From Rhytidiadelphus loreus (taxonomy: Eukaryota > Streptophyta > Bryopsida > Hypnales > Hylocomiaceae): DNA of 64,000 nucleotides. Below are positions 16,037 to 49,900 of this stretch, piece by piece. The first letter of the stretch is position 1. Every line of letters starts with the position of its first letter. The stretch spans positions 27,912,863 to 27,976,862 of the forward strand of contig OX344761.1 in NCBI GenBank assembly GCA_947034895.1, read 5' to 3'. Position numbers and translations under genes: made by a program. A model generated the notes under the pieces. It did no database searches, was not told where the DNA came from, and saw only the letters and a program-made list of their open reading frames with translations.

Positions 16037-16790
16037 CAAAATACTTGTGAAAAATTATCTAATTTTATATTATACTGCAACAAATAAAAATTCACATGAA
16101 AACAACCAATCTAAAAATGTGCATTGACCAAAGGGACTACAATGGATATACTTACCTCAACAATTGAAGAATCCAAAGGCTAATGACATGCACGTGGTTT
16201 TTTCTTGCATCACAAGGTGCATCATTCATTGTTCACATTAACGAAATTTCGTACTAAATATAAGTAGGTCTAGTATTCTACTCTACTCCATCTCCAATCA
16301 AAATATGTGTCGAAAACTTTCTAATTTGCCACAATTAATATTGCACCAAAAATAAAAATGTGAAACCAATCAGTCTAAAAATGTACATTGACCAAAGGGA
16401 CCACAATGTACATACTTACCTCATCAAATCAAAAACCCAAAGACATGAGATACACATGGTTTTCTCTTGCATCACAAGGTGCATCATTCATTATTCATGC
16501 GTATTGTACTAAGAAATTTCATACCGAATATAAGTGGGTATAATACTTTCCTCTCCTCCATCTCCAACCAAAATACATGTGAAAAATTCTCTAATTTGCC
16601 ACAATATTGCAGCCAAAAAAAAAAAAAAAATCGGTCTAAAAATGTGCATTGACCAAAGGGACCACAATGGGTATACTTACCTCAAGAATTCAAAAACCCA
16701 AAAGGCATGAGAGATGCATTGACGTCATACCGTACTACAAAGAAATTTCGTACTCAGTATATAAGTGGGTCTAAGTTATTACTCTCCTCC
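16037..16790 (+). repeat. three-copy tandem repeat, period about 261-270 bp
   Basis: Units start near 16038, 16299 and 16569 with CAAAATA(C/T)(T/A/G)TGT(G/C)(A/G)AAAA. They share the phrases 'aaaaatgt(g/a)cattgaccaaag', 'acttacctca' and, in the first two, 'cttgcatcacaaggtgcatc'. It is non-coding, and the divergence suggests an old local amplification. Confidence 0.8.
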
Positions 16791-29539: not shown

Positions 29540-32500
29540 TGGATAGAAGATAGACACATTGTACTTTTCCAACAAATTATTACATAGAGAGAGAGAGAGT
29601 TGTTAAAAATGCCTCAAAGAATCACTAGGCCCCCTTGATCTAATGAAAATTGCATTCACAATGGTCATCTTACTCACCCGCACAATGGTCACAATATTTT
29701 CCTAAATAATCATGACATCATGACTCTAGAATTGCCACATATCCTATAGTTTAACAACTAATCATTTGTTGTTCCTATTGTGGTTATTTAGCCATTCTAT
29801 TATTATCACTTAAAACTCTAACTAAATCACCCTGTTGTGGATCAAATCTCACTTATTCAAAAAATGGTAGTTTCAAGATGGATACGATGATTGGAATAGG
29901 CCCATTCCGGAATGCATAGAATGGATATTTTTGTCTAATATGGGCTCATCTACCTTATATACTGATTTTTAGATTTCATTTGAATTAGCACTAGTATAAA
30001 TCTACATTGAAAAAAAAGTTGTCTAAAATGGTTAAGCTAATTTTGTATTGAAACTAGCACAATTGCATTAAAAACAACATATATTTAAAGCCATTTTAGA
30101 CCATGATTTCTTTAGTTTGAATTTATTCTAGTGTCAAAATTTGAAAAGACATATATATGTCTCCTCAAATATATGTGTCCTTTGGATGCCATTATAGGGA
30201 ATCCTATTGAATGGAAAAAATTATTTTTTGAGTTTAGTTTATATTTGATATTTTTTTTTCACTTCTTACTTTTATAAATCCATAGTGATTTCAAATTTTT
30301 AATAAGAGAATTGAAAATTTCATAAATTTTGGAAGACATATGTTTTCATCTCTTATAAATAAGCATAAATTATCTCAAAATAAGAGAATACAAAGTAGAA
30401 GGATTTTGATGTTAAATTCCATGGCTGTAGGCTTGACCTTTCATGACCAATTGGGTAGGCTATACACCCACATTATTACCATTTTGTATTTGTATTAAGA
30501 GCATTGCCAACCTTACTTTGTATATTGGCCTAGGCCTGTGGAGGTGGGAACTAGTTATGACTTTTGGGCCACCATTTGTTGGGACGACAACTTTATCCCT
30601 TAGTCTTGCCATATTTTGTCTCTGAACCCTCAACTTTTGTACAATTTGCATATTTTTTTCATGCTCAATCATTGGCGTTAGATTGAATGTAATCTTATTG
30701 CTTAGTCATAAATTCAATGGCAAGTTGTATTTGTAGTCTATTCACAATGGATCGGAGAGCATAAAAATTTAGTTGCAAATTAGAGAGAAAACATTATGAT
30801 GTTTGAGGGTTCTTTAGGGGAAGAATTAGGGTTCCAATATAGTCGCATGGAAGGCTCAGAAGAGTTGATTGGGGGTCATAAAGGACCACAACAAATTTCT
30901 CAAAAGGTGACTTTCCAAGGAGTGCAACAGAGATCATGGATGGAAATATTGCAATGGCAATTTTTGGAGGCGTGACTGGCATTGGCACTCCCAAGGGCAA
31001 GAATTTTGTGCACAAGGAGAAGCACTAGCTCGCTTAGTTTTAGCCATCATCTTGGCCCCATGCAAGGTAATGAGTAGAAAGGGTATTGTTTAGGGGAAAG
31101 GATTGGTGAGCACTGTGTAGATTAGCTTTAGAAATCTAATTAGGAAAACTAAGCTTTTAATATAAAGTTTGTTCAAAGAGGCTAAGTAAATAAGCTTACT
31201 TCTCAATATAACCTAATAGATCATTGCAACCAAAAGATAATAGAAAATATTCCTTCAATTTGGACAATATGTTTTCCTTATGCAATATACTAATTCCAAA
31301 ATTTTCCTATCCCCTCTTAAAGGCCTGAAGGGTTAATATACTTCTAATCTATTTTTTTTCTTAATCTTTTATTGTTTAATATTTTGAGACTTCAATCTTT
31401 TTTCTAAATCAGAATTCCATAGCAAAGTCAACTTTGTTGTGCTCTTTAGCTTCCAACTTGACCTCATTTTCACTAGAGCTTAGTATGTATTCTTTCACAA
31501 GTACACTTGAAACTATATTAACCAAATCAACTTTAATCTTCTCCAAAGCACAGCTCAACCTTTTATAACTTTTACAACAACAAAATTTTAAAACCACTAT
31601 GCACCAATTTGGAATTGGCCTTCTTAATCTCAAACTCATTGATTGCTCGAACATTTCTTTCTTTCAATTAACATATGAATTTGAATCACTCACAAATAAA
31701 AGTGGACCATTGATAGGAATATAAAACACACCCTCAATCGACTCTATTAGGAACTATTTATAAGACAACATTCAGACCTCTTCCAACTTGGTTTTTTTGA
31801 GTCAACAAGCACCACTCTAGAATCAATGAATTCATACATACTTTATTGCACATCAAATTCCTTATAAGACTAAGACTGAATACTTTCCATTTTATTAATT
31901 TAAACACATATTTAAGTACAACCAAAATCAATCATTAAGCATTTCCAACCTGAACTTAATATTCCGACTTGTAAGACAACCACGAACTTAACTATCATGA
32001 CACACCGCACTTTGGCTCGAACTCACAAATTTTAGACTACCCATCTAGCAAGCATTCTACAAATCATACATCCAAATTGGTAATCATCTCATTTGCACTC
32101 TAGAACATTATGTAGAATAAACATTTCATTGCAACTACTATTTGGACTCACACTATTTCTCTCATGCACATCAAACTCCAAATTAGACACAAGTATACAA
32201 CTCATACAATAATAACAACTGCATTAGCAATTAATCAATTTAGCCGACCACTTTATCTCAAATTGGACATACACTATGCAAATAGGACATACAATAACAT
32301 AATAAATAGACTCACAAATCATACTTTCACACCTCCACAACTTAAAATCAATTACATTTACATACACATCAAAGTTGAAACTATATCATATTAATCAGAA
32401 TGGGGAATACACCACCGTAAACAACTTTCACAGTTTGCTCATTTACAAATTTGTCATCCCAGAACATCTCAACGAAGCTAGTATACGAGCGTACAGCATA

Positions 32501-32595
32501 GAACCTAGAATTTTGAACGTGGAGCATGGATTTAGGGTGAATTTTATAAAAAAAGAAAAAAAGAAGGTGAAAAATAAAAGCAATGTAGATGATAG
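29540..32595. other. non-coding DNA upstream of the minisatellite
   Basis: There is no supported gene in 3 kb. Short frames at 30443-30672 and 30794-31015 lack motifs. GAGAGAGAGAG lies near 29587. 31680-32400 is unusually C- and A-rich on the plus strand with few G, similar in style to 49.6-52.7 kb. Confidence 0.45.
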
Positions 32596-33185
32596 ATTTG
32601 GATGAATATGGATGAAAAATACAAGGATTGCCGATGAAAAATATGGTGGAGGTGGATGAAGAATACACTGAATTGGGATGAAAAGTAGTGTGGATGTGGA
32701 GGAAGAACTAGATGGATGTAGATGGAAATTGGGATGAAATGGATGAAAAGTAGGATGAATGCGGATGAAAAATAGGGTTACTGTGGATGAAAAGTGGGAT
32801 GACTGTGGATGAAAAATAGGATGACAGTGGATGAATAAGGATGAAAAATAGGGTGAAAGTGGATGAAGAAGAGGATGAATGTGGATGATAAATACGATGA
32901 CTATGAATGAAAAGTGGGATGAATGTGGATGAAAAATATGATGAATGCGGATGAAAAATAGGGTGCATAAGCATGAAAAAAAGGCTCGGAGTGGGAAACA
33001 AAGGTGGGCCATGCATGGAAAATAGGATGTATGTGAATGAAAAGTTTGGTGGACATGGATAGAAAATAGGGTGGATTTGGATGAAAAAAAGAATGATATA
33101 GGATGAAAAGTGGGATGATAGTGGATGAAAAATAGGGTGGATGTGGTTGAAAAATGATGAGAACATGGAGGAAAACCAAGGTTCC
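32596..33185 (+). repeat. GGATGAAAAATAGG minisatellite
   Basis: About thirty degenerate units of 15-20 bp of the form GTGGATGAAAAATAGGATGA fill this stretch. Minus-strand frames across it appear long (up to about 250 codons, histidine-, proline- and phenylalanine-rich) only because the repeat lacks stops; I reject them as genes. The array lies 0.65 kb beyond the end of the transposase gene. A shorter inverse array (CATCCA(A/C)TTTGTT) is at 49125-49290, beyond the other side of the coding block. Confidence 0.9.
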
Positions 33186-33189
33186 ATGT

Positions 33190-33830
33190 ACTGAACATAG
33201 AGGATCATAAATTTGGGATTGTTAGATGTATAACTACCTTTTTTGTTGTATATTAGATGGACATCAAAGATAGGTCCATATTAGAGCTCAGAGTTCCTCA
33301 ATGTGGGAAATAATTGCCAATTGGATTTGGGTTTAAGAGTTATCATTTGTAACATGTTCAAGTGCAATCATGCCTTCATAAGATGGCCCAGTGTATACCT
33401 TGGGAACCTCTATTAGGACTCTCGGTACCAAGAGACATCCCATATGTGGTCTACTTATGCAATATTTATTGTGGTGTCTAGGGTGTTGAGGAATCTGAAA
33501 TTAGAATTTATTTTAGCTATTCCAAGACGCGTTGGAATAGGTATAGGCCCACAATTTGATCTTCAAGATTTATATAGTACTATTGTTGGATTTCAAAGAC
33601 GCATTTTAAATTATCGGATTAATGAGGGCATTCAGGTTATTACGTAGATATTGACAATATCATGGAAAGCAACAAAGAAACAACACTGTAAAACATGCAT
33701 ATATCTAGTGACCGTTAAATGGAGTAGTGGCCCTTTTAGTCTCACTACTTTTTAAAAGAAACAGAAATACAAGCTAGAATTTGAGGTGACTCGCTTTAGT
33801 AATGGCGTTCATCTTGACGCTAGCTAACAC
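33190..33830. other. 3' flank of the transposase gene, with one CTCGGTACCAAGAG palindrome
   Basis: There is no gene. At about 33417-33434 it contains ACTCTCGGTACCAAGAGA, a variant of the palindrome that recurs at 40.36-41.88 kb between the two divergent genes. I looked for the terminal inverted repeat of a MULE here and found no convincing partner. Confidence 0.5.
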
Positions 33831-36800
33831 CTACATACTGCTTGTGCAACGGAAGATACTGCTCTCCATAATTCGTTTAAGCTCATTGAAGCTGAAACTT
33901 GTAGCATGAATGAATACATCTACTTCTGGATCAAAGCGGTAGATGACAATGAATAGGAAATACAAGTGCTTGCAGTTGATCCATTGCCCTCTCTTTCCTA
34001 GTGACTTTGTCAACATTTCTTTGAAATAAGGACAAGAGCACTCTGGATACGAACCTACAGTGACTACGTACTGCTGAATGTTAGGGTCTAAACCTGAGTC
34101 AAGTAGAACAATGCATCCAAACCCTGGATGAGGTATCAACGTCACTTGACGAACGATGGCTTTCAAGGTAAGTGCAGAACCACAAGTGTTTGCTTGTTTT
34201 GTTGTAGGTGCAGTCTTGTTTCTTCGTATTTTCCTGCCACATCTTGTACTTGGATGCTCCGCAAGAAAATCAGGAACCGGGAAATCTGTTAAATCGGCTA
34301 GTACATCATGGTATTCAAATAGTCGGCGAGGGGAAATTACAACACGTTCAGGGAGACGAAAGCTAGAATTCTGGAGCTGCTGGATCTCTGTAGGCGTAAG
34401 ATTTGTTCCCGTCTTCACTGGCCAAATGTGAGGCACATCAGGTTTAGACATAACCCACTTCCTCTTTGAACCTTTCACGCAACGCTCAATGTCGTCGTTG
34501 CAGAAGAAAAATTGCGTTCTCTCAATTGTTTTCTTCTGATAACAGTCCATGTCGCCGGTGTAAGTTGGAGCTGCGGTTCCTTTGTTGCCTTGAACAATCT
34601 TTGCAACACACTTCTTGCGCGTTATGGCGTGCAAGGCAAAGCACGCCTTCGACAAAGTCTTCGGCAACCGAGCTATATGCCACATTTTCTCATCACAAGA
34701 GGTCTCTTCGACGCTTGTCACTCGAAAGGACTCCGAGGTGGATGGCGCTATCATGGGACCAGTAGGTCTGTGCAACTCTATTTGAGTATCATGTAGGGAA
34801 CCTTCTTCATAGACCGGTTCTAGAGGAGGGGCAGATGCACTTGCTCGTGTTGTCCTTATTCCTCCTCGGGGTCTTGAGAAATTTACTTTGTCGGGGCGGT
34901 GGGAATCGTGCTGGGACCCTGGAGGAAGATTAGGCATCCGTGCTTGAGATCCAAAAACCTCTTCTCCTTCAAAGTGAGGATTCCTTGTGCAGTACTCACC
35001 ACCACCCGGGACGGTTGCCATTGCATCATTGAGGCCTTTTGGATTCCCAGTGCGCTGCGCATACCTATGTGCAACTCGAAGCTGTAGTTCTGCTTTTCTT
35101 GGACCGGTTCCAGGGTTATCACCTTTGAGAAACTGATAATACCGAACCATCTGCATGAATGCTCGTACATAATCATCAACCGTCGCAACATACAAATCAT
35201 TTCCTCGCTTTCTTGATTGTTGCAACCATTTGTTATGGATGGTCTCTGCGAGGTTGCAAGAAGGCATCTCTGCAAGTTCATGCATTGGCAAATCCTGCAA
35301 TTAGAAGATCATGAGTAAGATAGGAAGGAAATTATCTTCAATTGATCACTAAATGCCTGAAATCATCAAGGGATAGGAGAAGCTTGAGGACAACAGTGGT
35401 CATTGATGACAATGTCAATATCTCTATAACAGAATTAGACCAGGGCATTAGAAAGAATTGAAAGGAAAAATAAATGCAAAAAATGGTGCATCTTACAATT
35501 TGCATGAAGCCCCCCCACTGTCGGTATCGAAAGTGCCAAAATGCAAGCCAGAGCTCCAAGCGGCGAATTCCTTCTTCCGTAGCGGCTCCAGAAGAATGCC
35601 ACCAAGTTCGAATGGCGTGAAATTGAATCTCTGCCATAGCTATGGAGGACGCATCCTTATATTGCTTGCACAATTGGCGGTGTTGATCTTGAAGGTCCGA
35701 GCGAATGTCAGCTTTTGTATGTTTTTCCATGGATTGCGTCCAATGGAATAAACATGTACGCTCTCGATTGGGCATTGGGTGCTGTGGGTTACCATTTCCA
35801 TAAATAACCCTCACTGCATTCCAATTGGCTTGTGCACAGTCTACCATAAAGCCTTTAAAATACGGCAAAGGAATTCCATGCCGTCCCATTACCGCGTTCA
35901 AATTAGTCCAAAAAGAGGATTGCGCTGCAGTATCCTCGGATTGCATGTCGCAAACCGCAATTGTCATCACACGACAATAAATTGGATCATAAACATGACA
36001 TGCAAGAGTTGTCCACTGCTTCACTCGCTTGACATGGTCAAACATGATCCATGAGTCCTGGAGGTCACCAGTAAGTTGCATGCGTGTAACCAGATCAACG
36101 CCACTGCCAGGGCCCATTTCTGACATTTTAAAAACGAAAACCTTCTCCAAATCCGAACCTTGACCTGGAAATTTATTCTCTTGAACATAAGCCCAGTTGC
36201 TACATCCTCGCAGCTTTAGAATGCTATCCATAACTCCAAATCGCCGGAAGTATTTGAAGGTGTTCACATCATTTCTAATGCTCGGAGAGCTTATGTATTT
36301 GCACTTTTCTATAATTGGCAAGAGTTCATCTATCCCGAAATTCCCAATGGGTGCTCCTTTTGGATGAAGAAGCATCTCTCCTAAGAGCTCCTTGCTTGCT
36401 TCCAAAACAATTGAAGAGTTCGTCCCAGATGGATTCCTCTCCACTTGATCTGAAATCAGAGATCGAGTTCTCTCCTTTGATCCACGACAATCGCCATCTT
36501 TCACGGGGTGATCATGTAATCCAAAATGAACACACGCTCGGTGCATCCTTGAAATCCCAACTACATAATAAATTTTGGCAGGGCAAACCGCAACGCAAGA
36601 AGGGACCTCACCACAGATTTTGCACGTTATTGTGGAAGTAGGAGGTGGATAAGAACCAACTTGAAATGGAATAGGAGAACACCCATCCCATTCCGTCTCA
36701 TTGATGGGCGCCACACGGTGTTTGCGAGTAAGGTACTCGCAAGAGTCGTTATTACACCGAAGGTGTCCCACACACGAAGATAAACGAAATGTCAAACCAT

Positions 36801-37608
36801 CCTCGTTTCTAATGTTAGTGGTGTGTAAATTGGACCACACATGGCCATCAAAGCGTTTCTCCATCCCACTCAAAAGTTTTCCTTGGCAGAGGTGACCGGA
36901 AAGGGATATGGGCGGCAATTCAAAAATAACATCACCGTTAAATGCGGAAGGGACAAAATTGACCTGATGAACCGAAATGGAATCATAATCAATCTTTTTA
37001 AAAGTGTTTCGCGACCATTTGGTATGACATAACTTTCGAAGGCAAGGAATAATTGACAGTCCTTCAACGACCTTCGACATATTCACGAGCACTACATCAG
37101 GCTTCAAGGAGATGGAAGAGATTGGACAAGAAGATGAAGGCATATGTTTCAAAACCTTATGGGGAGGAGAGGAGTCGTTTGAGTCGTCGCTCCCGATGAC
37201 AATGACATCGACTCCAGGCTCGATTTTAACGCGAGATACCATCGGCGTCCGGAACGAACTAGTTGATGACAATTTGATAGCGTCCTCGCCGAAAGACGAC
37301 TTGGGACCAGGTACTGGTAGTCCATACACTAAATACCTTCTTGGGCCCAGATGCCATTCTCTGCAGGAACTTAGCTCAATAGGTTCTTGACCTAATGTAT
37401 GAATCAATTCTCCGCTATCCTTGTCAAAAATCTCCTTGTCAATGTGTAATGAACTAGGACAGAGACTAAACCGAATACTCAAGCGCACTGCACTAACGAC
37501 TGCAAATCCCGTATTTCCGATAGGAAACGATATTGGAACAAATTCTCCCCTTGCCCTCACAATTGCCACTGAATTAGACATCCCACTAAGGATCATTGCC
37601 AAATACAA
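33831..37608 (-). CDS. MULE-type transposase with WRKY-GCM1 and SWIM zinc fingers
   Basis: Two exons, 37608-35497 and 35294-33831, are joined by a 202-bp GTAAGA...TTGCAG intron in phase 0, giving about 1191 residues without a stop. The start may be the first Met or the Met nine codons on (37581). Residues 127-143 hold VKIE then VDVIVIGSDD, a SUMO-site and SUMO-interaction look-alike. Residues 280-370 resemble a WRKY-GCM1 finger: C285, C290, CKIC 329-332, HFGLHDHP 361-368. The DDE core follows: D524 (IMFDHV), D590 (FMVDCAQ), CLFHW 619-623, and a likely acidic residue at E660. A SWIM finger closes the protein: CSC at 1123-1125, CKH at 1145-1147. This order is known for plant MULEs. The protein should bind and cut element ends in the nucleus; an intact frame suggests a recent or domesticated copy. 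No MULE terminal repeats were found. Confidence 0.88.
35295..35496 (-). other. intron of the transposase gene
   Basis: On the minus strand the donor is ATT|GTAAGA and the acceptor TTGCAG|GAT, both consensus. It joins QWGGFMQI to DLPMHELAEM in phase 0. Reading through the intron would end in unrelated hydrophobic residues and a stop, so splicing is needed for the C-terminal half and its SWIM finger. Confidence 0.85.
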
Positions 37609-38650
37609 ATAAGGAACGAGTAAGCATTTTTTAGAAGCGACTCCGATAGAACTAACCGTAGAAAGAGAAATGGATTGTACATATCAAGAGACAATATAAG
37701 GACTCCAATATTGAATCCTTCTTAAACTAAGGACGGCTACATTAAAGAGCAGCCCACCATACAACATTGAACTTCAAAGGCAAGGTATTGTTAAAGTACA
37801 CGATATTTAAGGTCTCAACTGTATTTGTAAGAGTGGTGGCCCATTACTCAGAAATGAATTATCTCGTTTTGTCAGTAGAGACAATGATAAATTATGCTGA
37901 CAATATATCCATATAGCCAAACATTAGCAGAGTGACAAATCTCTAGCAGTAGACTTCATTATTAACCTTTGAGCGCCCAGGAGGAAATCACCAAAATAAG
38001 CATGCTGCAGACACTGACAGAAATAAGAGGCTCCTATAGATGCAATACTTTCATCCGACAAACTTCACCGTTGGAACTTTGAGAGGGGTAGAGTCTGAAG
38101 GTTTGCTGAGAATCTGCAGAGACTTGACCGTTTGGATGCAGAGATTATAGCAGTCAATTCTGCGTTGACTGCCTCGTTTTAGGCGATTTTTGAGAGGTCC
38201 GTGTTATTCGGAGGCCTCCCCCACCCTGAAGAAGTGCCCAACGCTGTCGATTTTTTGCCGGTGGCTGAGCCCTCTCATGATCGTGTAGTGTATAAAATTG
38301 CTTGGATTTTCGATGCCTACAGCTTTAGTCGATGCCGCATTGAATTCGGTGTCCTCACATTGGAGAGATGAGTGCAGACCGGGAGCACAAAAAAGACAAC
38401 TGACAGGTAGGACAGGGGCTCGGTGGTATACATGCCATCCGCATAGCCTAGTCAGCATTCCCGTAAGTAGAAGCAACTGCCCATACCAGCTGAATCGTGG
38501 TTGGACAGGTTGGCTTCAGGCAGGTCCAAATATAGAATACTATTTGCACATCAAAAATTCCGTGTTCAAAACCACATGTAGGTAAGGTAAGAACATCTCC
38601 TGTGGCCCTTTTGGTTTAAGCCCTTCAAATGGGTTTTGGAAGGTGATTGG
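37609..38650. promoter_or_regulatory. 5' flank of the transposase gene (start of the divergent intergenic region)
   Basis: There is no supported gene. Sequence at 37980-38560 is GC-richer and holds short frames without motifs. A TATAAAA at about 38290 on the plus strand could serve rightward transcription, but I cannot tie it to a start site. The region presumably holds the transposase promoter. Confidence 0.3.
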
Positions 38651-38659
38651 TAGAATCAA

Positions 38660-39285
38660 ACTCAGTGGGGCTAGAAAATAATTGCCTTTTCAAAATCAAA
38701 ACGGTCAAAAAACTTCCATACCCTTATAGAGAGTCCCAAAGAAACACACCGTGAAAAAAAATAGAAACAAGAATGTCCAATCCTATTTTTCTAAAAATAG
38801 ACAGCTAAATCATTCAAAAAAATGTAAAAAATTCCAACATCGTCCAATGATTCCACAACTTTCCATCTAGGTGCAACCTACAGCCACAAACATGTGCACC
38901 AAATTTTGCACAATTCCAAGCACCCAATCAAAAGTTATGGCCCATTTGATAAACTGTGACTAATGTGTCTAATGCCTCCTAGGGGCATTAGACACATTAG
39001 TCACAAGTGCCCAAATCTCCTAAAATAACTGCCTTCTCTAATTCAAAATGGTCCCAAAACTTCCATACCCTTGCACACAGTCCCAAAGAAGCACATTGTG
39101 TAAAAAAATTGAAACAAGAAGGCCCAACTCTATTTTTTCTAAAAATGAATAGCTAAATCATTCAAAAAATGTAAAAAATTCCAAGAGCATCCAATGATCT
39201 CACAACTTTCCATCTAGGTGCAACCTACACCCACTAACATGTGCACCAAATTTTGCACAATTCCAACCACCCAATGTCTAATATC
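38660..39285 (+). repeat. tandem duplication, about 325-bp spacing, between the divergent genes
   Basis: The block at about 38670-38940 is repeated at about 39020-39277 with high similarity (shared 'aaaacttccatacccttg', 'caactttccatctaggtgca', 'gtgcaccaaattttgcaca'). The 22-bp-arm palindrome at 38955-39005 sits at the junction. Non-coding. Confidence 0.85.
38955..39005. repeat. perfect palindrome, 22-bp arms, 7-base loop
   Basis: TGTGACTAATGTGTCTAATG..., arm 38955-38976, is exactly complementary to 38984-39005. It lies at the junction of a tandem duplication between the two divergent genes. It could be a foldback element end or a cruciform-forming site. Confidence 0.9.
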
Positions 39286-39289
39286 TATT

Positions 39290-39786
39290 AATTTAATAAG
39301 GCTTGGGTAGTACTTGCATGTTAAAATAATATTCATTCACACGAACACCGAAAGTGCGCTGTCAAAATTTAGGTACATTTTTAAATACATATGATCATAA
39401 GAACAATTGGGGATCCACTCCATATCATGTGTGTAATGAATGGGGCCTCCAAAATTAAGGGTTTTGACACCGAGGCAATATTTTAGGCCTCCCATACAAT
39501 GGCACTATATCCCATAAGATGTGGATAGGGCGTCTTATATCCCAATTACGACTGTCGAAAACCTAAAGGCAGCCCTGCGGTGGTATGGTCTGTCATCGCA
39601 GGAGGTCGCCATTCCCAGCCAACAAACTTTTGTATCCAGCTCGTGCTGTCCTCCAAGTAAACTGTGTAAGCCGTTGGTGCCGTCCCTCCTGTGAACTTTG
39701 TGTTTGTTTCAGGTTGTCCGATGCTTTCTGCCTGTTGCTCACAAGTCGTGGAACTCGCAATTTTTTGTTTTTTCAGCCAGGTTGGG
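39290..39786. promoter_or_regulatory. presumed promoter side of the ParB-methyltransferase gene
   Basis: The sequence becomes GC-richer from about 39545. It holds open frames without motifs that overlap the candidate first exon. No clear TATA box or initiator can be assigned. Confidence 0.25.
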
Positions 39787-39885
39787 ATGGCAAGATCTGG
39801 TCCGAACTTGTGGCCGCGCCGCCACCACGCGAGCGGAGCTCCACTAGAAGCTCCCGCAACAATCTCTGAGAACGCTGAACTCCAG
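39787..39885 (+). CDS. candidate first coding exon of the ParB-methyltransferase gene
   Basis: ATGGCAAGATCTGG opens 33 codons, rich in arginine, histidine, alanine and proline, that end at CAG|GTTTGA in phase 0. The donor is of the GTTTG(A/T) type used by two certain introns of the downstream gene. Phase 0 would join directly to the exon at 41781. The 1.9-kb intron this implies would contain the CTCGGTACCGAG palindromes. There is no protein motif to confirm it; the gene could instead start at 41781. Confidence 0.3.
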
Positions 39886-40354
39886 GTTTGAGGCTGCTCA
39901 CTCTCGCTTGTCTTTCTCGGTCTATTTTACGGGGACATAGCGTTGAGGAATTCACAGGGACAGAGCTGAATATTCTACGGGAACAGAGCATTAAGTATTT
40001 CACGATTAGAAATGAACATATATTGTTCGGTCCTTAGTACCTTGAATTTCTAATTTTCGCAGGCAACCTTGAGAACTATAGTTGACGAAATGTCAATAGT
40101 ACATCGACGAGTAGGGTTCAGTGAGAAACGTTTAATCACCTTCATTTCCAGAGTATAAATTTTCAATTAGGTCTTTAGCTATACAAACACTAAGGTACTC
40201 TCTAAGTATTGTTGGCCGACAAATCACTGAGATCAATACTAGAACTACGAATTTTCATTAATTTATTTAAGGATTTCACCGTGCTCTTGATAGCACGTCG
40301 CGCTGGTACGATGCTCTGTTCCCAATTCCTAGTGCTCAGGAAAAGCTTGTCGAC

Positions 40355-41885
40355 TTCCATCTTGGTACCGAGAAGGACTTTTCCGGGGCCTTGCCTTGCA
40401 TTAGTTTCCAGGTATTCGAGGGCCACATTCATCAAGCTATCTGGAATTGGACAAGCCTAAATCCAGTTTCGCATTCAGTTAGCAAAGACAAAGGCCTCTC
40501 GGGCCCGAGAAGTAGATAATGTCCTAGTCATCATTGATACCATTATAGATGTGATTGCCTTTGAGCTTCGAAATTTTGTTTATTACCAAGCTTGCAATGC
40601 TGCTGTAGAAAGTGATCTTGGTACCGAGATCAAAGGATCACTGGATTGACCATGCATAGGAATGTCCATAACCTCTTTTCAGCAATTTCCCTAATTTCGA
40701 TACAGTATAGTTTTAGTGATATTAGCTTTTTCGTCTGCACCCCAGATTTGGCATTTGTTGTCACGAGTCGGGTGCCTGCAAGAATTTTAACGCATCAGGA
40801 GTAGTCTTAGCATCAACGTATGCATACGGAGAGCAGGCCAAACTGAATCTCGGCACGGGTAGAACGACAGTTTCATTTTGCCCCAAACTTTGCTGGGTAG
40901 GCCCGGATATGTCTCAACCGTAAACGTCTAGGGTCGGTTTTATTTATGCATAGATTGGCAGTGCAATCAGTCATCTCGGTACCGAGATGAAGAAAACACA
41001 AGGATGTCCATGCATACATTGACTGGTTTAGGGTCAGTTGGAAAGCTAAAGGTAATTTTATCCAGAAATGTAGCGTTCAAGTTGCGAGATTTCAACTACT
41101 CAATATCATATTTGATTCCTTACAAAATGAAGTCAGTAGTATGGCCAAAACTATCGATAGATTGAATAATGTATGCATTAATCATTTATATCTCGCTTGA
41201 TGACAATCGAACTTGCTCTTGGCACCTGTGAAGATCATGCATAGGTAGCTGGAGAAATTCATGGTCTCAGTATTGAGACTCACTGTCCACTACGATATCT
41301 GTGCAAGAAAACTCGCAATTCGCTTTCTAACATATCTGGGTTTTTTTAATGCGTATCCAGGTTGCGGGATCAGAGCCCATATCACAGCCTCCAATCAGGG
41401 ACGATATCGCAGCCTCCTCGTCACCGGAATCTGTAAGACTGATGTCCATCTCACTCTCCCTAAGCAGTATTGATTAGCAAATGATTCCTCTTGTAATGCT
41501 AAGTAGAATGCATTACATCATCCATTCTATGTGGGTCGAAGCGTATCCGGTTACAAATGATTCGGGAGCCATGTTAATAAACTAAATTTTCTGAATACCT
41601 ATTCCTGAATGCTAGAGGCCAGGGAAGTGTCCATTGCATGCCATTTAAGTGCGTTGTACCCTCTCGGTGTCGAGACGTAGTAGGACTGTGCAGATGTATG
41701 CATAATTTAATTTTATTCGGAGATTGAGATTCTGAAAAAGGTGATAATCTGATACGTTTAAATTCTCAATATTTGTGCAGATGGAGGTTGTTCTTGAGCC
41801 ATCACCACCTGTGGTATGCTTCTAACTTATTAGTATGCAAGGATATACTTGACCGAACGTCATCTCGGTACCAAGACTGCAGATG
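40355..41885. repeat. scattered palindromes with consensus CTCGGTACCGAG
   Basis: Copies are at about 40361-40373 (CTTGGTACCGAGA), 40614-40631 (GATCTTGGTACCGAGATC), 40971-40990 (TCATCTCGGTACCGAGATGA, a perfect 20-bp palindrome), 41267-41278 (CTCAGTATTGAG), 41662-41674 (CTCGGTGTCGAGA) and 41864-41876 (CTCGGTACCAAGA), with spacings of 190-400 bp. Several are followed by ATGTCC and TATGCAT words, so they may belong to a degenerate longer repeat. Another copy is at 33417-33434 beyond the transposase gene. They look like binding sites for a dimeric protein. A site for the transposase or the ParB-like protein is a guess. Confidence 0.6.
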
Positions 41886-44800
41886 AAATGTCCTGCCGAA
41901 GCAAACTTATCCGAGTGAATCAGCTCCTTCTGCTCGAAATATTCAAATCAATCTTCAATAGGTTTAGGTCATGTGTTGTATTGTACTTTGGTATTTGTTA
42001 GACATTCCTAGCTATCAATGATCGAGAGACTCATGATTGTCGAACCTGCTTGCTTGTACAAGATCATGGTGGATTTGGAGAGGCCAATATCTCTCAACAT
42101 AACGACCTCTCTGGGCAAGCTTCTGAAAATGATCTAGTAGTTAATCTGGATGAAACTGGCATGGAGACGCAAGACGATATCACTGATCACGTCCCTGGAG
42201 TCGAATCTAGCTTCATGGAGGAAGATATTAGGCGGACACAGACCTTGGACACGGTCTCCGTCATCAATTCCTTAAAGATGATGAGCAATGACCTATCACG
42301 CATGAAGATCCCATTGTGTAGGTTGGTCCCAATGCCAATGGTCCGGCCAACCTTATCCTGTGATTTAACGCAGCTCGACAACCAGTTCAGCCGAGGATAC
42401 GATGAAGGTGCGCGAGTTTTTTATGTGTCCATATCAGACGAGCAAGGAAACCTCGAGGTTTTCAACGACTCAGAGAAGAAGGAGTGGGGGCCAATTTGGA
42501 ACTTGGTTAACGATACCTTCAATGCGCACCTCCTTTCTATACCTGCGTTGCAGCATCTTGTGGACTACAAGTTCTTCGTCTGTGATGGAAATCACAAGCG
42601 AATTGCTTGGATGAACCACATTGAGCGTCTCCATAACCTGGAGAGGGATTGGCATATTAGTGTTGACTCCATTGTCCTTGACACAAGAGACCGAATTGGC
42701 ATAGCAATGCAAGCTATGCATGATATTAACACGTAAGTCCCTACTACTCTATGTGCCTAATGAGTTCATATTTTCAGAAAACCAAGAATTCTCTCCACTA
42801 CTTGATTAAACCTTGTTGTGATGAAATTGTGACAGGCATACTGAAAACTCGCATGTGAAGACAAACCATGTCCATACCCTCTACCGGGTCCAAAAATATG
42901 GAGTCATGGAACTCCAAAAGTTTCAAGAGTTACTGAGTACGGAGGAGGTCCAGTCTTGTCACATGAACACGCGAAAGACTTGGTATACGATGCCGTTGGA
43001 CGTTTTCACCAGCTTCATCTTCAAGGTTTGAAGCTGACTTCTCTTTATTACTACATGCTCTCCCTCTATGTTGTGATTAGTCACATTGTTGCATTCTCTC
43101 AATTGATCATTATTTTTGTATTCAGCAAGAAATAGGTGCAGCGGCTGATGCTGGAATACGGAAGTTCAAAGAGGATACTCCACCGTCGGAGGTAACCAGA
43201 GAGGGGGTAGCGGCCGCTATGAGATCTTTTATTAAAGATTCCACGGAGAGGCATTACAAGAAGCTCTCTAAAATAGTCGCGGTGGCTAATCCAGCCCTGG
43301 GTTTGGAATGGCTCCATGAGGTACGATTATTCTAAACATAATCGGAATTGAATTGATCTTGTTATGTTTGTATGATTCTGAATAATTGGGATTTTGACCT
43401 TGCCAGATTGAGAGGCATTGGAGCCATAATGCAATTCCAGAATTGACATTAGAGAAGTTGCAACTCATTGCAACTGCAGCCGTTAGTCCATTGTATAAGG
43501 TAAAGTGGTTGAAATGGATCAACTCTAGTGCATCCACGAGAGAGGCACGCCGATTTCCAGCCCGCCCAGTGAATGAAGACAAGTTAGGGGTCTTCCTTGC
43601 AAAGGCATGTTACTACACCGGGGTAAGTGGTCTCAACTGCAACGAATGTTGAATATTCATGTTTTTTTTAAAATTTGGCATTGACTGGTATTCATATATC
43701 GCCTGCTCCGTCGTACTATTCAGTTGGATTTGATAGTTTCTCTCGTGTCATATATTTTCCAGCTTGAAGAGGATGCACTGGAGATGTTTGAGTCCATCAC
43801 CAAGTCTAATAATATTTCAATTGACATGTCCGTCCCCACTAAGCCCCTGTCACTCGTTGAATATATTGAGGTGTGGCGGATGAAGCTTTGGGATCAAGCC
43901 TACACGGGGGCGTTCAAGGGCACTGATGCCTTCAAAAAATCAGATATATTTTCACTGTATCAGGGGGCCCAACAGACAGTGCAGCGAGTGATTTATAGGT
44001 ACCGGAATGATTTTCTCTTTGTGGTTATTTCTGTACCAAGATATGCATCTCTAGTGTGTTGGTATGCATGCAATTAGTTTTAATATTCGGGGGTCTTCCA
44101 AGCATTAATCTGTATGATCGTGTCTGCTTGAAACAAATTTTGAGTTGAATTAGTTTTGATGGCCGAAAACTTAGCTGGTATACTACCATTGAAACTAAAT
44201 TCCAAAAATCCTAATGACTATGTACAGGTACTTCAAGTTTGAATTGTATGGGAAGAAGGCCATTAAAAGGGAGGATTTACCGCCTTTTCTTACCACATGG
44301 TTGGATCGGACCTCGCCGGACTGTATGTTCTCTCCAACACAGTTGCAGAAGTGGACTAGTGCTCATCTCCAAGCTTGTCCGTGGTATCTTGAGTGCTCCG
44401 TTGGTGTTACTCCTACAGAGGAAGAGACGCTATTTCAGAAGCTGAACGAGGCAGTGGTGGCTGATGCGGAGTTCAATGAGTTTGTTGGACTTGATCCAGA
44501 AGCCCGTGACAAGGCCGTGAAAAAACGAGAGTTAGCCGACAAGAAGAAGGTGGAGAAATTAGAGGAGGCTAAGAAGAAGACTGAAGACAACAAGAAGAAA
44601 AGATTGGCCGTGCAGACTGAGAGAAACCTCGAGAAAGAAAAGAAGAAACGCCGCATTGGAAAGGATGAGGTTCGAGTACCAGAGCCAGCTACAAGCGCAG
44701 CAGATGTGAACATCTCATCATCCAGATTTTCCCTAACGCAAGAGCGCTTGGTGCATCGATTGACGCCAACAACTAACCGTATTAATCATGTTCCTGACAT

Positions 44801-46060
44801 TGACAAGTGTATTTTGAACTACTCGTTGGGTACTCTCGATATGATGTCTGATGCCTTCAAGGACGTTGAAGCCTTCTTGGCCATGGTAATTATGTTCAGT
44901 CATTTGTGAAGTTTTAGTAAATTGATCATTTTTTAACTTTTGGTATTCAGTATTCATCATTGCATTCCCTATCTGTATAAGGATGCTTGTCATTGAACTA
45001 AATGTAAGGGGATATATATAACAATGCTTGTCATTGTAATTTATTTTCTAATGCATTTTCATTTGCAATTATCATGCAGCATTCCAGTGACAAGAAACGT
45101 TCCTTCAATGGAGTCATTGGATCTGAGCCAGCGGTGGACCTCATGATTGTTGATGTGCCGGAAGGACTCCATGTTCCTACCGTTTCATCAGCACCTCAAC
45201 CAATTCCGCCATGGAATGTTTTTAAAACCGACTACTTATTTCCCGTATTTGATTTTGCTCAGGAGTATCTCCATGACACTGGTGGTCTGATCTTGATGTA
45301 TCCAAGCCCCTCTCCTGCACACAAAGGCCACATTCTAGGATGCTGCAAGGAATACAAGTTTCGCATTTTGTATACTTATTTCGGGACGAATCATCTACAT
45401 ACAACATCACCAGCAGACTCGTCGAGGACGGTAATTCACTTTGTATTCACTTGCAATTTTTTCTAAAATTATTAAATGTTTCAGAGATTCTTACATGCTT
45501 TTCATGCAGACTATGAGGTTCTCCATCTCCCTTCTCGTGAAGGAGTCGGGTCCGAAGACCCTTGAAGACTTCCCATTCCAATTTGTTCCGTCCCATGATG
45601 CGGTGGGTGTGAACCTTGCTAAGGACGACATCCTCCGGAACATGCTATTTAAAGAAGACGTTACTATGAATGGAGACGTACCTTGGCGTGGACCTCGTGA
45701 AAAAGGCCGGGAGTTCATGCAGATGCTCATGGAGGCCTTGTCTGCATCAGGGGATGTAGTTGTTGATTGCACCGTAGGAACAGGTTTGTTGTTCACATCC
45801 AAGCATGTTTCTTATCTGTAGTACACCAAGCGCAATTGAATATTAACATCCTTGTGAATGTTTTGCTGATAGGTTCCAGCATTCAAGCATGCCATGCTAC
45901 ACGTCGCCATATTCTGGCATTTGAGGAGGATAAGGCTATCTTTGATGCCCTCATTGCTCCGATATTACGACCTACTGCGGTTAATCAACCAGAACCAGAC
46001 ACCTCTATGGCAGCCCTGGGAGGTGACGACGAGGAAGATATAGTGATCCAAAAAGTCTAG
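41781..46060 (+). CDS. ParB-like domain plus beta-class DNA amino-methyltransferase-like protein
   Basis: Ten exons were read by eye, and all phases join: 41781-41813, 42002-42732, 42836-43025, 43126-43320, 43407-43622, 43763-43998, 44228-44885, 45080-45430, 45510-45783, 45873-46060, giving 1023 residues. The first one or two exons are the least certain. Residues about 140-250 resemble a ParB/sulfiredoxin-like fold, with FVCDGNHKRIAW near 204-215. Residues 629-679 are Lys/Glu-rich, probably coiled coil. From 754 a permuted methyltransferase follows: VDLMIVDVPEGL (motif IV place, 778-781), GGLILMYPSPSP, WRGPREKGREF (motif X place, about 929-939), VVVDCTVGTGSS (motif I, 953-964), LAFEEDKAIFDA (motif II). 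This order is that of beta-class N4/N6 DNA methyltransferases. DVPE in place of (D/N/S)PP(Y/W) puts activity in doubt. It is divergent from the MULE transposase gene. Confidence 0.78.
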
Positions 46061-46421
46061 AAGACCAACCGATTCAGTAAGTAAGTCATCCATTGAGTTC
46101 CTTTATTGATCCATCATTTTTCCTTGAACTTCCAGTGATCTAAATAATTGTTTATTATTGTGCAAGCAAAGCCAGAAAGTGACTTCTAGAAGGCACATAC
46201 CTTTTTACGCGAATCCTAAGTTCTTTCGGAGCCCACCTAAACCATTTCTGCTGCCGGTATATGCTGAGGCTCTATCCCGAGATTTTGTTGCAATAAACCC
46301 ACAGCCATCATCGAGGGCATGTTCGATAGATCCTCGTGCACTGCAGTTTGTAGATGATCATGCAATAGAGTCAGATTCTCATACATCTGATAGTGAGGCT
46401 AGCTCTATGTCAACTCTTTAG
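46061..46421 (+). CDS. possible alternative C-terminal exon of the ParB-methyltransferase gene
   Basis: After the stop at 46058-46060 there is a consensus donor, GTAAGT, at 46081 and an acceptor, TGCAAG, ending at 46166. They are followed by an open frame to 46421, a basic then acidic/serine-rich tail ending SSMSTL. Splicing from 46080 would be out of frame and after a stop. A weak in-frame donor, ATA|GTGATC at 46043, would add this tail in phase 0. The exon may belong to a longer ancestral form, or be 3' untranslated. Confidence 0.35.
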
Positions 46422-47340
46422 CTGTTGAACTTTTCTTGTTCTTCCTACAGCATACTTATGTTTTTTGGATTAGAGTTTTTCTAATTCACTTATATTTTCT
46501 GCTTACTTTGTACTACTTTGGCACATCCTTCTCTAACTAAGATTAGATGCTTTGTAAGCAGCCATTCATGTGATAATCCATTTTTTTCATATGCTTGAGT
46601 TCTATACAATTGCTCTACATCATTTTTCAGTGACAGGCGAAAAGATGAGGAACCTAAAACAGTTGGTTTTGTATTTTTCCAAACATTTTCAAAGATTTAG
46701 GTGAAAGCCACCAAGTTGCGAACATACGTCTCCCAAAATACGTCTACTTGCAACTTGTACAGAGATGTGCCGAATTCAAAGACACTGAATTTTTCTTGCA
46801 GTATAAAAAGTAATTTTTCCCAATTCATTCGAGTGCTACAATGGTCCGTTTTAGGATCACACCATCTGTATTCTTCACCTCAAAATAGGAGCAATTTCTG
46901 GAAGATGGGCACGTTTAGAACATCCTACATTATTATTCTTGGTTGTCTTTTCTTTTGCCTACAAAACTATATCTACATTTCTAGTAGGTACAAATATTTT
47001 CTATTATTATATATAATGTATCTCTAGTAATTACTATTATTCTATTTTCTTGTATAGTAAATATTTTGCTAGATGGTACTTGGTCCTAAATGCCACTCGA
47101 ACCCGAGAACAATCCATATAGGTCCTAGGCACGGTTTTTGTACCCTTGAAGCAACGTTGCCTATTGGTTTGCTTGTTCTGTGGACGACATTTGTACCCAA
47201 ATTAGGATCTACATGTCCATTGGATGAGCAGCCTATCTCTTATCTGCTCCAACCCAAACAAAGATGGTCCACTTGTTGAACTCCCAACGTGTCTAGCCCG
47301 GGGACGGTCCTCATTGTAATAAAAGAGAAGGGCTCCTCTA
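46422..47340. other. 3' flank of the methyltransferase gene
   Basis: There is no supported gene. The sequence returns to AT-rich by about 46.9 kb. Frames at 46701-47027 and 47073-47279 carry no known motif. Confidence 0.45.
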
Positions 47341-47358
47341 CCGCAAACCATTCGGTTC

Positions 47359-48235
47359 TTATGACGATGCGATAGAAGGTCTTGTTTCCATAGTCAATAT
47401 GGTCATCAGGTCGTGAATTTGAGGAGAGGTTGGTTTCCTTTGGTTGTGTACCATGGTTGTGTCATCATGGTTTGCACACAGGCAACGAATTTTTTCTTCC
47501 ATCATTTCTCGAAGACCATCGTTCAATGTTTTTAGCCCAAGTATTTTGGCAGTCCATTTACTGGGGCTCCATATACCGCTCCCTTGTTCTTCCTTACGTG
47601 GATGAAACGCACTTAGAGTTCGGACAAGGTAGCGATGAACTGTGCCACAAACATTGAACAATTTTGTAAGTTCAATTTCCTTTTCTGTGTTTATGATATT
47701 CTTGGAGTTGCATATAGTTGGATTCGATTTATTTTAGATTTGTAACTTGTGTAGTTAAGGTCCAATAGGTCTGGGAGAGGCAGACATTCATCTCTTTCAA
47801 AATCCAACATCCTCACATTGTCCATTGTTCCATGTACAATAGCATTCAGATATGTCATTGAAGCCGGATGTTTGCATTGCCTTATAGGACCAACCACTCC
47901 ATGCCAATCATCATGCATTATCTTCAGCCATGTTGTGTAATTCTCCACTACCGCTTTTGAAATACCAAACTGTTGTCATGTTTAATGACAACGCAAAGAG
48001 GGTCCGACTCAATGTTGGAAGCAAAAATAAAATATGATCTCCGAACTGTATCTTGACTTTATGATTAGGCAAGCACACAATTTTTTAGTTCAGCGATGTT
48101 AGTGGGGATTAACACAATGGGGCAAAGGCAATGCATGGTGATTGACAAGAAGTCGGTGTGCTCATGGTCAACATATGAGTCTTCAATATCATCACCTTCC
48201 TTGGTGCAGGGGTCTTCATTTCCATAGTGTTTCTA
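47359..48235 (-). pseudogene. broken coding fragments of an unrecognised protein
   Basis: Three minus-strand pieces look like exons or exon relics. At about 48235-48075, GDDIEDSYVDHEHTDFLSIT continues to a stop. At about 47975-47700, after a CAG acceptor, SKAVVENYTTWLKIMHDDWH leads into RMLDFERDECLPLPDLLDL. At about 47680-47359, EKEIELTKLFNVCGTVHRYL leads on to a lysine-rich end. Composition and charge pattern are protein-like and unlike the surrounding AT-rich DNA, but frames shift between pieces, and I see no complete gene or known domain. It may be a transposon-borne or host gene fragment. It lies 1 kb downstream of, and convergent with, the methyltransferase gene. Confidence 0.4.
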
Positions 48236-48239
48236 GTAA

Positions 48240-49120
48240 GTGCTAGGACCTGGACATCTACAATCATTGAGTGTAGTTGGTCTTTCAATTTGGTCTCTTG
48301 CAGACGCTACACTGATTATGCTTCAGTGGAACTCCATGTCATTTTTTGAAGTGGGTTCTTTGTAAAACCAACGAATGCTCATTTGTTGGTAGTGTCTCTT
48401 GCTTATGAATAAAATAAACTTTTATCCTCTCTGACCGCTGAACGCACTTGTCTACAATATGTTATAGTTACTCTTTGTACTGGATTATTTATCTCTTTGT
48501 TTTATAAAATGAGCCCTTCAAGTATTTGTCATTCACTACCAAATGTGTTGAGGGGCAACGATTATGAGTCCAATGGTCATGCCCCGTTATTAGGTAGACT
48601 TTCAAGGAAAAAAATTGTATTATCAGACCTTGCTTGACAGGCAAGCACCCTAAAACTCTTCTTAGAGTGAGATTGGTACACTACACATGTTTGTTTTACC
48701 ATTTGGGCTTAGTATGATGTAAGTTACAAACTCGGTTTAAGCAATCAAAAGTAAAAGAGGAATTTTGCAAAATCAGTCTGTAGGTGCCTAAGCTGGCAGA
48801 AAAGTTTAGGGTAGCATAACTTTTGATTGCTTAAACCAATCACAGAATTAATAAAATTCCCAACAAAGGGGTATATATCTAGACCTCGTGTCAATATTTC
48901 ATAAACATAATCCCAAAATTTGCTTCATTGGAACTCTAATTAGATTTTTAATTGTTTGTTCAATGGACAATTGTCCATTAGGGATTAATGAAAGAGCCTA
49001 TACCCAAATACGGTGCCCATTTCCACTGGTATGCACCGTTTTTCCAATTTTCACTGCATATGTTTTCTCTTCTTTAGCATTCTACAATTTATTAAATTTG
49101 AAATTGAAAACCGTTTTTTA
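48240..49120. other. non-coding, diverged R1 repeat at about 48.65-49.0 kb
   Basis: There is no gene. 48640-48980 has R1 phrases ('cttgcttgacaggcaagcac', 'gattgcttaaaccaatcac', 'ggacaattgtccatta'). Confidence 0.45.
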
Positions 49121-49124
49121 TCAC

Positions 49125-49290
49125 CCAATTTTTCCATCCAATTTTTCCATCCAATTTTTATATCCACTTTGTTCATCCACTTTGTTCATTCACTTTGTTC
49201 ATTTACTTTGTTCATCCACTTTGTTCATCCATTTTGTTCATCCAATTTTTTCATCCATTTTGACCATCCATTTTGTTCATCCAATTTGAT
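49125..49290 (+). repeat. CATCCA(A/C)TTTGTT minisatellite
   Basis: About thirteen units of 10-13 bp of the form TTCATCCACTTTG. Read on the other strand they resemble the GGATGAA array at 32596-33185, so like-sequence arrays in opposite orientation bracket the coding block. The phenylalanine/histidine-rich frames across the array are artefacts. Confidence 0.85.
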
Positions 49291-49299
49291 CCATTTCAT

Positions 49300-49900
49300 T
49301 GAACTACTTCCATCCACTGTCTCGTAATTGTCTTCAAATTTTTTTACTAAACTTTCATCCATTATTTCCTAAAACTTTCATGAACTTTGACCATAAATTT
49401 ATCCATTTTCTCTTAAATTTATGTCAATTTCTTCATACTTTTCTTCCAAATTCTTCAATAAATTTTCCATATTCCCGCTCACCGCTCACCGATCCCCGCT
49501 CCCCGCTCGCTGCTCTACGCTCCATGCTCGCATACCAGCATTCCCCCAGAACATCTCTACCAACTTGGAATTTCACACTAGCTTCTCATTCGATTAACAC
49601 TTTGACACTTAATACTCATCACCAAAACTCACATTCACCATCTTCTAAACTCTCATAAACGAAAGAAATTACACAACCAACTTCAATGGGATACACACTC
49701 AACTCTTTTAAAGTGGGTGACCACGAATTGAAATCCAAAACCAAATAGGATGCAAAACCAATGGCTACCAGACAACTTGAAAACAACCTAATGCAACCTA
49801 ACTACTACACAACCTAAATAGCTTCCAACCACTCGAACAATTAACTCAGACTACATAAATCCAAGTCAATATTGCAACCCTACTACACCAATTATGTTAT
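49300..49900. other. non-coding, plus strand poor in G
   Basis: C- and A-rich on the plus strand with a short CCGCTCACCGCTC / CCCCGCTCCCCGCTC stretch at about 49484-49510. There is no gene; the open frame over it reflects scarce stop codons. Confidence 0.4.

Follow-up and report, generated by a model that had tools for sequence, protein, structure and literature searches.

Do the two divergent genes at positions 33831-46060 of a Rhytidiadelphus loreus contig belong to a single mobile unit, and what would the second gene do for it? The window analysed was the whole stretch of 64,000 nt from assembly GCA_947034895.1 (OX344761.1, positions 27,912,863-27,976,862, forward strand). The initial annotation had described an adjacent, divergent transposase and ParB-methyltransferase gene as the sole intact coding genes of the 64 kb, GC-richer than their flanks and sharing a palindrome-bearing region, and these observations were reproduced. 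Both genes were multi-exon. Seven stop-to-stop open reading frames of at least 150 aa were found in the window, of which five were parts of the two genes and two were reading frames of one simple tandem repeat. GC content was 0.40-0.47 at 34-46 kb, compared with 0.24-0.43 in the rest of the window, and a palindrome of 33 nt (85%) was located between the genes at 38944-39016. The exons were assigned as follows.

33831-35294, minus strand: transposase exon 2 (splicing model; proposed last catalytic E, AETIHNKW)
35497-37581, minus strand: transposase exon 1 (splicing model, fold matches, homologues)
42002-42732, plus strand: ParB-methyltransferase exon 1 (ParB/sulfiredoxin-like fold at about 42290-42700)
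42836-43025, 43126-43320, 43407-43622, 43763-43998 and 44228-44885, plus strand: exons 2-6, linker (splicing model)
45080-45430, plus strand: exon 7, methyltransferase domain (initial part), motif IV as DVPE (alignment to bacterial DPPF)
45510-45783 and 45873-46060, plus strand: exons 8-9, motif I DCTVGTG and the next acidic motif (splicing model, alignment, profile)

The transposase exons (37581-35497 and 35294-33831), separated by one GT-AG intron of 202 nt, encode a stop-free protein of 1182 aa. Exon 1 contains an N-terminal ubiquitin-like fold and a zinc-rich middle (weak GCM-domain match), followed by an RNase H-like catalytic domain at about 36123-35497. A SWIM-like CSCPYF...CKH stretch lies in exon 2 near 33945-34064 (weak SWIM match, E 0.49). 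Zinc-finger or SWIM motifs for DNA binding are frequent in MULEs. Homologues in public proteins numbered 36, and the E motif was present too in homologue P0001. A profile search of the PDB with the transposase gave no meaningful match; the best fold match of the transposase model was the ISCth4 transposase (PDB 6xgx, 6xgw, 6xg8), which we take to be an IS256-family member, IS256 corresponding in bacteria to MuDR. A Mutator-like element (MULE) was therefore the best fit, with a MULE/IS256-type DDE transposase.

The second gene comprises nine exons on the plus strand (42002-46060) and eight GT-AG introns of 79-229 nt; splice sites were picked by hand and the start codon is provisional. Its predicted product of ~1012 aa, without internal stop, combines a ParB/sulfiredoxin-like fold with a beta-class N6/N4 methyltransferase domain. 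Matches of exon 1 to the ParB/sulfiredoxin-like fold were weak in score and unanimous in family. The exon-1 profile found 383 homologues at E<=0.001, and among the 120 of them listed the G..HR-type loop of this fold was read as DGNHR in 111. A search with the full-length accessory protein gave no match among 7978 scored candidates, because public gene calls split this gene by exon. The ParB region had no match in a PDB sequence search, and the ParB exon was not confirmed in any GTDB genome contig. Two other assignments were rejected: KMP-11, the sole profile match in the PDB for the ParB region (E 0.03), was taken as chance, and Pfam DUF1015 matched the ParB exon in 6 of 49 members, below significance (best E 0.092).

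The methyltransferase domain matched PF01555 in six of six aligned copies, with a profile match spanning residues 20-231 and motifs in beta-class order. The D of motif IV was kept in 22 of 23 copies, the motif being conserved and not scattered. These features speak for an active DNA methyltransferase (6mA, 4mC or other target), one able to put a mark of its own on the element even with E in motif IV. Against this, the aromatic residue of DPP[YFW] was replaced by E in 23/23 copies, so that the active beta-class form [DNS]PP[YFW] occurred in none of them, and in motif I, A or S often stood in place of the first glycine. In motif IV, the role of the aromatic residue is to stack on the flipped base; the lack of this residue weakens the case for active methylation, and we regard an active enzyme as unlikely. 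The C-terminal part of the domain, with motif I and the motifs after it, resembles DpnA, and gave a profile match at E 0.003 to adenine-specific beta-class methyltransferases (PDB 5hfj, 5hek). In the compared bacterial sequences motif IV reads DPP[YF], as against DVPE here. DNA methyltransferase families of PHROGs were matched only at E 0.059 or worse. Elsewhere in the assembly, eight PF01555 matches to bacterial-type methyltransferases were set aside; they lay on small contigs, probably bacterial contaminants, and none was at an element.

Comparison of copies placed both genes inside one pair of outer ends, 5'-CAACGAAGCTAGTATACGAG on the transposase side and 5'-GGGGAATGCTGGTATGCGAG on the methyltransferase side.

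32460-32469: target-site duplication, left copy, CAGAACATCT (same as 49547-49556)
32470-49546: whole transposon, 17,077 bp (common outer ends, bounded by the duplication)
32470-32498, plus strand: terminal inverted repeat at the left end, short and imperfect (GAAGCTAGTATACGAGCG; opposite end, GAATGCTGGTATGCGAGC)
32561-33155, plus strand: subterminal GGATGAA array in tandem on the transposase side, facing inward (TRF)
49121-49288, minus strand: subterminal GGATGAA array on the methyltransferase side, facing inward and read as TTCATCC on the plus strand (TRF)
49518-49546, minus strand: terminal inverted repeat at the right end, short and imperfect (end comparison)
49547-49556: target-site duplication, right copy, CAGAACATCT (same as 32460-32469)

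A perfect 10-bp duplication surrounded both divergent genes in all five copies with both ends read. It was identical within each element (5/5) and in none of 20 cross pairs between elements; since its length was 10 bp in all five, the transposon ends at 49546. The stretch 33831-46060 holds the genes only, and the mobile unit is larger (32470-49546). MULE target-site duplications of 8-11 bp are given in the available part of PMC6446971, and that observed here falls in this range. The same text gives MULE terminal inverted repeats as commonly hundreds of bp, with 20-38 bp in some groups (its Table 1); those found here are ~25 bp and imperfect, with outermost bases CAAC versus GGG. Some MULE groups have short repeats of this kind or lack them. 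Of what the initial annotation had expected from an alignment of copies, the shared outer ends were found, long terminal inverted repeats were absent, and the duplication measured 10 bp where 8-9 bp had been predicted. In no case (0/5) did the outer ends of the transposase copy fall between the two genes, an arrangement that would have spoken against a joint element.

The pairing recurred across the genome. A listed ParB exon lay within 15 kb of 63 of the 121 listed transposase copies, in divergent order in 63/63 pairs, where random placement would give 1.8 + 2.1 (about 4). Chance proximity of a transposon and a host gene, left open by the initial annotation, was rejected in view of these pairs and of the duplication enclosing both genes; the two-gene MULE that it had suggested, with both genes inside one end pair and one 10-bp duplication, recurs genome-wide. 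A two-gene MULE-like transposon structure is thus strongly supported. The paired loci fall in two transposase clades, divergence is correlated between the paired genes, and the accessory gene evolves under strong purifying selection. MULEs often take up host genes (PMC6446971, available part), and the second gene might accordingly be a piece of a host gene picked up by the element (Pack-MULE type), or a chance neighbour, without a role in the element; the shared arrangement of the 63 loci across both clades, the selection and the correlated divergence make this very improbable. A distant ParB query for partners of the unpaired transposases returned mostly known places (judged by eye). Two regions beside second-set transposases had no mutual similarity, so that their element ends were not found.

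Derivation of the unit from a large DNA virus or other viral element is scarcely credible. Bacterial-type domains in a large element would suit such an origin, and methyltransferase-bearing giant-virus transposons exist (PMC3627910, available part), but eight introns and a MULE-size target-site duplication argue against it, as does the lack of relatives of the transposase and ParB exon in IMG/VR (pattern-limited search).

Between 32470 and 33500, GGATGAA occurred 20 times and TTCATCC not at all; between 48701 and 49547, TTCATCC occurred seven times and GGATGAA not at all. This polarity was the same in 6/6 transposase-side and 7/7 methyltransferase-side ends read. The oriented end arrays are a concrete candidate binding site for the accessory protein. 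The initial proposal from the sequence, in which the accessory gene could control transposition or silencing by reading, marking or unmarking DNA, is plausible. With moderate confidence we favour an apparently complete two-gene land-plant MULE, whose IS256/MuDR-type DDE transposase is accompanied by a ParB-methyltransferase-like protein that would shield or mark the element's DNA. We infer that this protein binds the GGATGAA arrays, binds SAM and acts on DNA. It would be drawn to its own element, probably via the inward-facing arrays of the two ends. The SAM-pocket domain, whose active site is altered, would then protect or mark the DNA there, and the copy so treated may escape host silencing or stay able to move.

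A less probable, tentative alternative is a transposition helper (mudrB-like, or an architectural factor of the transpososome), in which the ParB-like domain would bind the subterminal repeats and assist end pairing or integration, with the methyltransferase-like part as scaffold only. Inward-pointing arrays at both ends are expected of helper or transposase sites, the domain is conserved while its catalytic motif is altered, and mudrB is reported necessary for integration (PMC6446971, available part). A helper acting in trans should, however, decay with the transposase in stop-bearing copies, whereas in one young copy pair the accessory gene was constrained and better conserved and the transposase was not; the retained SAM-pocket motif region also sits poorly with a mere scaffold. 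It is also conceivable, if improbable, that the protein is a selfish eukaryotic ParB-type loader, which would load at the GGATGAA arrays (as ParB at parS) and spread along its own copy, a dead or re-purposed methyltransferase domain serving as SAM sensor or blocker of host methyltransferases. On this reading every copy would have a shield of its own, and the retention of the accessory gene in young copies with a broken transposase would be explained.

Distinct places of the ParB exon number at least 383, so the family apparently runs to hundreds of copies, and the many copies with intact exons suit long-read methylation calling. The conserved motif change under strong constraint raises the question of what a methyltransferase-like domain, possibly non-methylating, does for a transposon.

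Neither a MULE with a ParB-methyltransferase gene nor a land-plant case of such a gene was found in searches of open-licence papers, the former in agreement with the first description. Bacterial IS256-family insertion sequences (ISCth4), alike in transposase fold, have a single gene and no accessory methyltransferase. Maize MuDR (mudrA and mudrB) is likewise a two-gene MULE; in the available part of PMC6446971, mudrB encodes a protein of unknown function required for integration, with no ParB or methyltransferase domain mentioned, unlike the accessory protein here, and MULE terminal inverted repeats are said there to be commonly hundreds of bp, compared with ~25 bp here. Arabidopsis VANDAL MULEs, with their VANC anti-silencing system, share an accessory gene and noncoding short-motif arrays in a single orientation, as the GGATGAA arrays are; the VANC motifs are reported to occupy introns of both vanB and vanC as well as sequence upstream of vanA (PMC5735166, PMC10398659, available parts). 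The arrays here are subterminal at both ends, and VANC is not described as a ParB-methyltransferase in those parts (PMC5735166, PMC10398659). Fungal TET/JBP transposons also carry a DNA-modification gene aboard a DNA transposon, but with a methylcytosine dioxygenase and other transposase superfamilies, where a methyltransferase fold is found here (PMC12730594, available part).

A further likeness is to algal transposons. ParB-methyltransferase accessory genes have been reported in Sola1-1_Ec32 of Ectocarpus and in related transposons of green and red algae (PMC12477816, available part, which credits Iyer 2011 and Petroll 2025). Sola1-1_Ec32 is likewise large (21.5 kb), and its accessory gene, on the strand opposite the transposase, encodes ~1100 aa with a ParB-like and an N4/N6 DNA methyltransferase domain; for that protein, binding and modification of the element that carries it have been proposed (PMC12477816). 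The element described here, likened by description, also has both domains in one protein encoded opposite the transposase. It differs in transposase superfamily (IS256/MuDR-like, as against Sola) and in host (a land plant, as against an alga), and so extends these accessory genes to a land plant and an IS256/MuDR-type transposase. The same kind of accessory gene across transposon superfamilies would, if true, represent a general transposon strategy.

The host assembly (407 Mb, 489 contigs), in which the window occupies C1:27912863-27976862, was searched with the transposase and with exon 1 of the accessory ParB-methyltransferase gene (the ParB exon). The transposase search scored 58 places among 1695 candidates, and a distant-query transposase search scored 63 among 1703, with zero overlap between the sets. 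Three ParB-exon searches, each returning the best 150 of about 1400 candidates, gave 450 rows representing at least 383 distinct places. Among the matches listed, the transposase had a ParB exon within 15 kb at 31 of the 58 places in the first set and at 32 of the 63 in the second, and all 63 pairs were divergent. Random placement (300 runs) gave means of 1.8 and 2.1 such pairs, with maxima of 5 and 6. Divergent order within 15 kb, the check named in the initial annotation, thus recurs in this genome far above random placement. Among the same matches, extension to 30 kb paired 34/58 transposases, all divergent, in the first set and 36/63 in the second, where 34 pairs were divergent, one was convergent and one ran on the same strand; the reverse count placed a transposase within 15 kb of 63 of the 383 ParB places. 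In the first set, 23/58 transposases had neither a ParB nor a methyltransferase exon within 15 kb among the matches listed; several of these had one at 25-110 kb, a spacing that nested insertions would give, and others may have a partner that ranked below the best 150.

Seven small contigs, C295, C426, C309, C318, C174, C245 (loci L055-L061) and C394 (L064), carried bacterial-type N6/N4 methyltransferases and bacterial-type RuBisCO and are probably contamination of the plant assembly. Contig C489 carried what we take to be a plant-type plastid rbcL adjoining an accD-like frame, which identifies the host as a land plant, possibly a bryophyte.

Exons of the window copy were modelled with splice sites chosen by us from genomic DNA alone.

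37581-35497 and 35294-33831, minus strand, transposase, two exons, 1182 aa
42002-46060, plus strand, accessory gene, nine exons, 1012 aa, 8/8 introns GT-AG

Both reading frames were uninterrupted, so this copy may be autonomous. Transposase residues 1-88 (37581-37318) were unexpectedly predicted to adopt a ubiquitin-like, Raf-RBD or DIX-like fold. A near-perfect palindrome between the genes (38944-39016, 33-nt arms, 85%) is possibly a shared promoter feature.

Similarity of the window copy to other copies ended near 32470 and near 49510-49546, with end sequences 5'-CAACGAAGCTAGTATACGAG and 5'-GGGGAATGCTGGTATGCGAG. Five elements with both ends read (16.9-20.6 kb) each enclosed the divergent transposase and accessory gene, and all five were flanked by an exact 10-bp repeat (CAGAACATCT, CATGGAATAT, GCGAGAGGTC, TTGAAGCACT, CCAAAAGAAT). 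Flanks cross-paired between elements matched in 0/20 cases (best 5/10 positions). Three further ends, methyltransferase-side or transposase-side, were recognised singly. Elsewhere in the window, 7337-7864 belongs to a different repeat family and was 85% identical in DNA to sequence flanking the ParB copy L011 (C5 near 14.91 Mb); two tandem duplications lay at 16100-16712 (unit 270 bp) and 26116-26754 (unit 326 bp).

Percent identity to the window copy correlated between the two genes (Spearman 0.80) at the 21 loci where they were paired no more than 40 kb apart. The element at C3 near 67.04 Mb (transposase 75%, ParB exon only 63%) is perhaps a mosaic of two subfamilies.

Median dN/dS, over pairs that share history and are non-independent, was 0.065 for the ParB exon (15/20 copies stop-free; 42/105 pairs used), and 0.137 and 0.140 for methyltransferase exons 7 (15/18; 96 pairs) and 8 (14/20; 75 pairs). 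The accessory gene was open in 4/5 young sister copies; the fifth had stops, and its exons 6-7 fell outside the fetched stretches. The transposase had stops in all four young sisters with exon 1 covered. Between copies C5_26.77 and C1_53.83, the accessory gene had 26 synonymous and 21 nonsynonymous changes versus 11 and 44 in the transposase (Fisher p 0.0004); p was 0.049 for a disjoint pair and 0.39 for a third. These results are suggestive, though not proof, of copy-by-copy selection on the accessory gene. The young sisters (L002-L005 and the one at C3 near 33.38 Mb) had diverged less at synonymous sites of the transposase than at those of the accessory gene, a hint that copies recombine or that mutation is uneven.

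Public contigs held 36 transposase-like proteins (41-73% identity) and 383 ParB-exon homologues, of which 120 were listed. Because homologues of both genes occur there, the family, as judged by sequence similarity, extends beyond the host genome. No MULE with a ParB-methyltransferase gene was found in the open-licence papers searched; such accessory genes have already been reported from algal transposons (PMC12477816).

The most frequent 7-mer at both element ends was GGATGAA, found in the first kb 20-26 times at 6/6 transposase-side ends and 3-10 times at 7/7 methyltransferase-side ends, always directed inward, with none on the opposite strand. Away from the ends, the window held 5 in the 15-kb middle and 6 in the 47-kb flanks (opposite strand, 1 and 8). 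Arabidopsis MULE VANC proteins, according to PMC5735166, bind dense motif arrays of single orientation, and by this analogy the GGATGAA arrays are a good candidate binding site for the accessory protein or the transposase.
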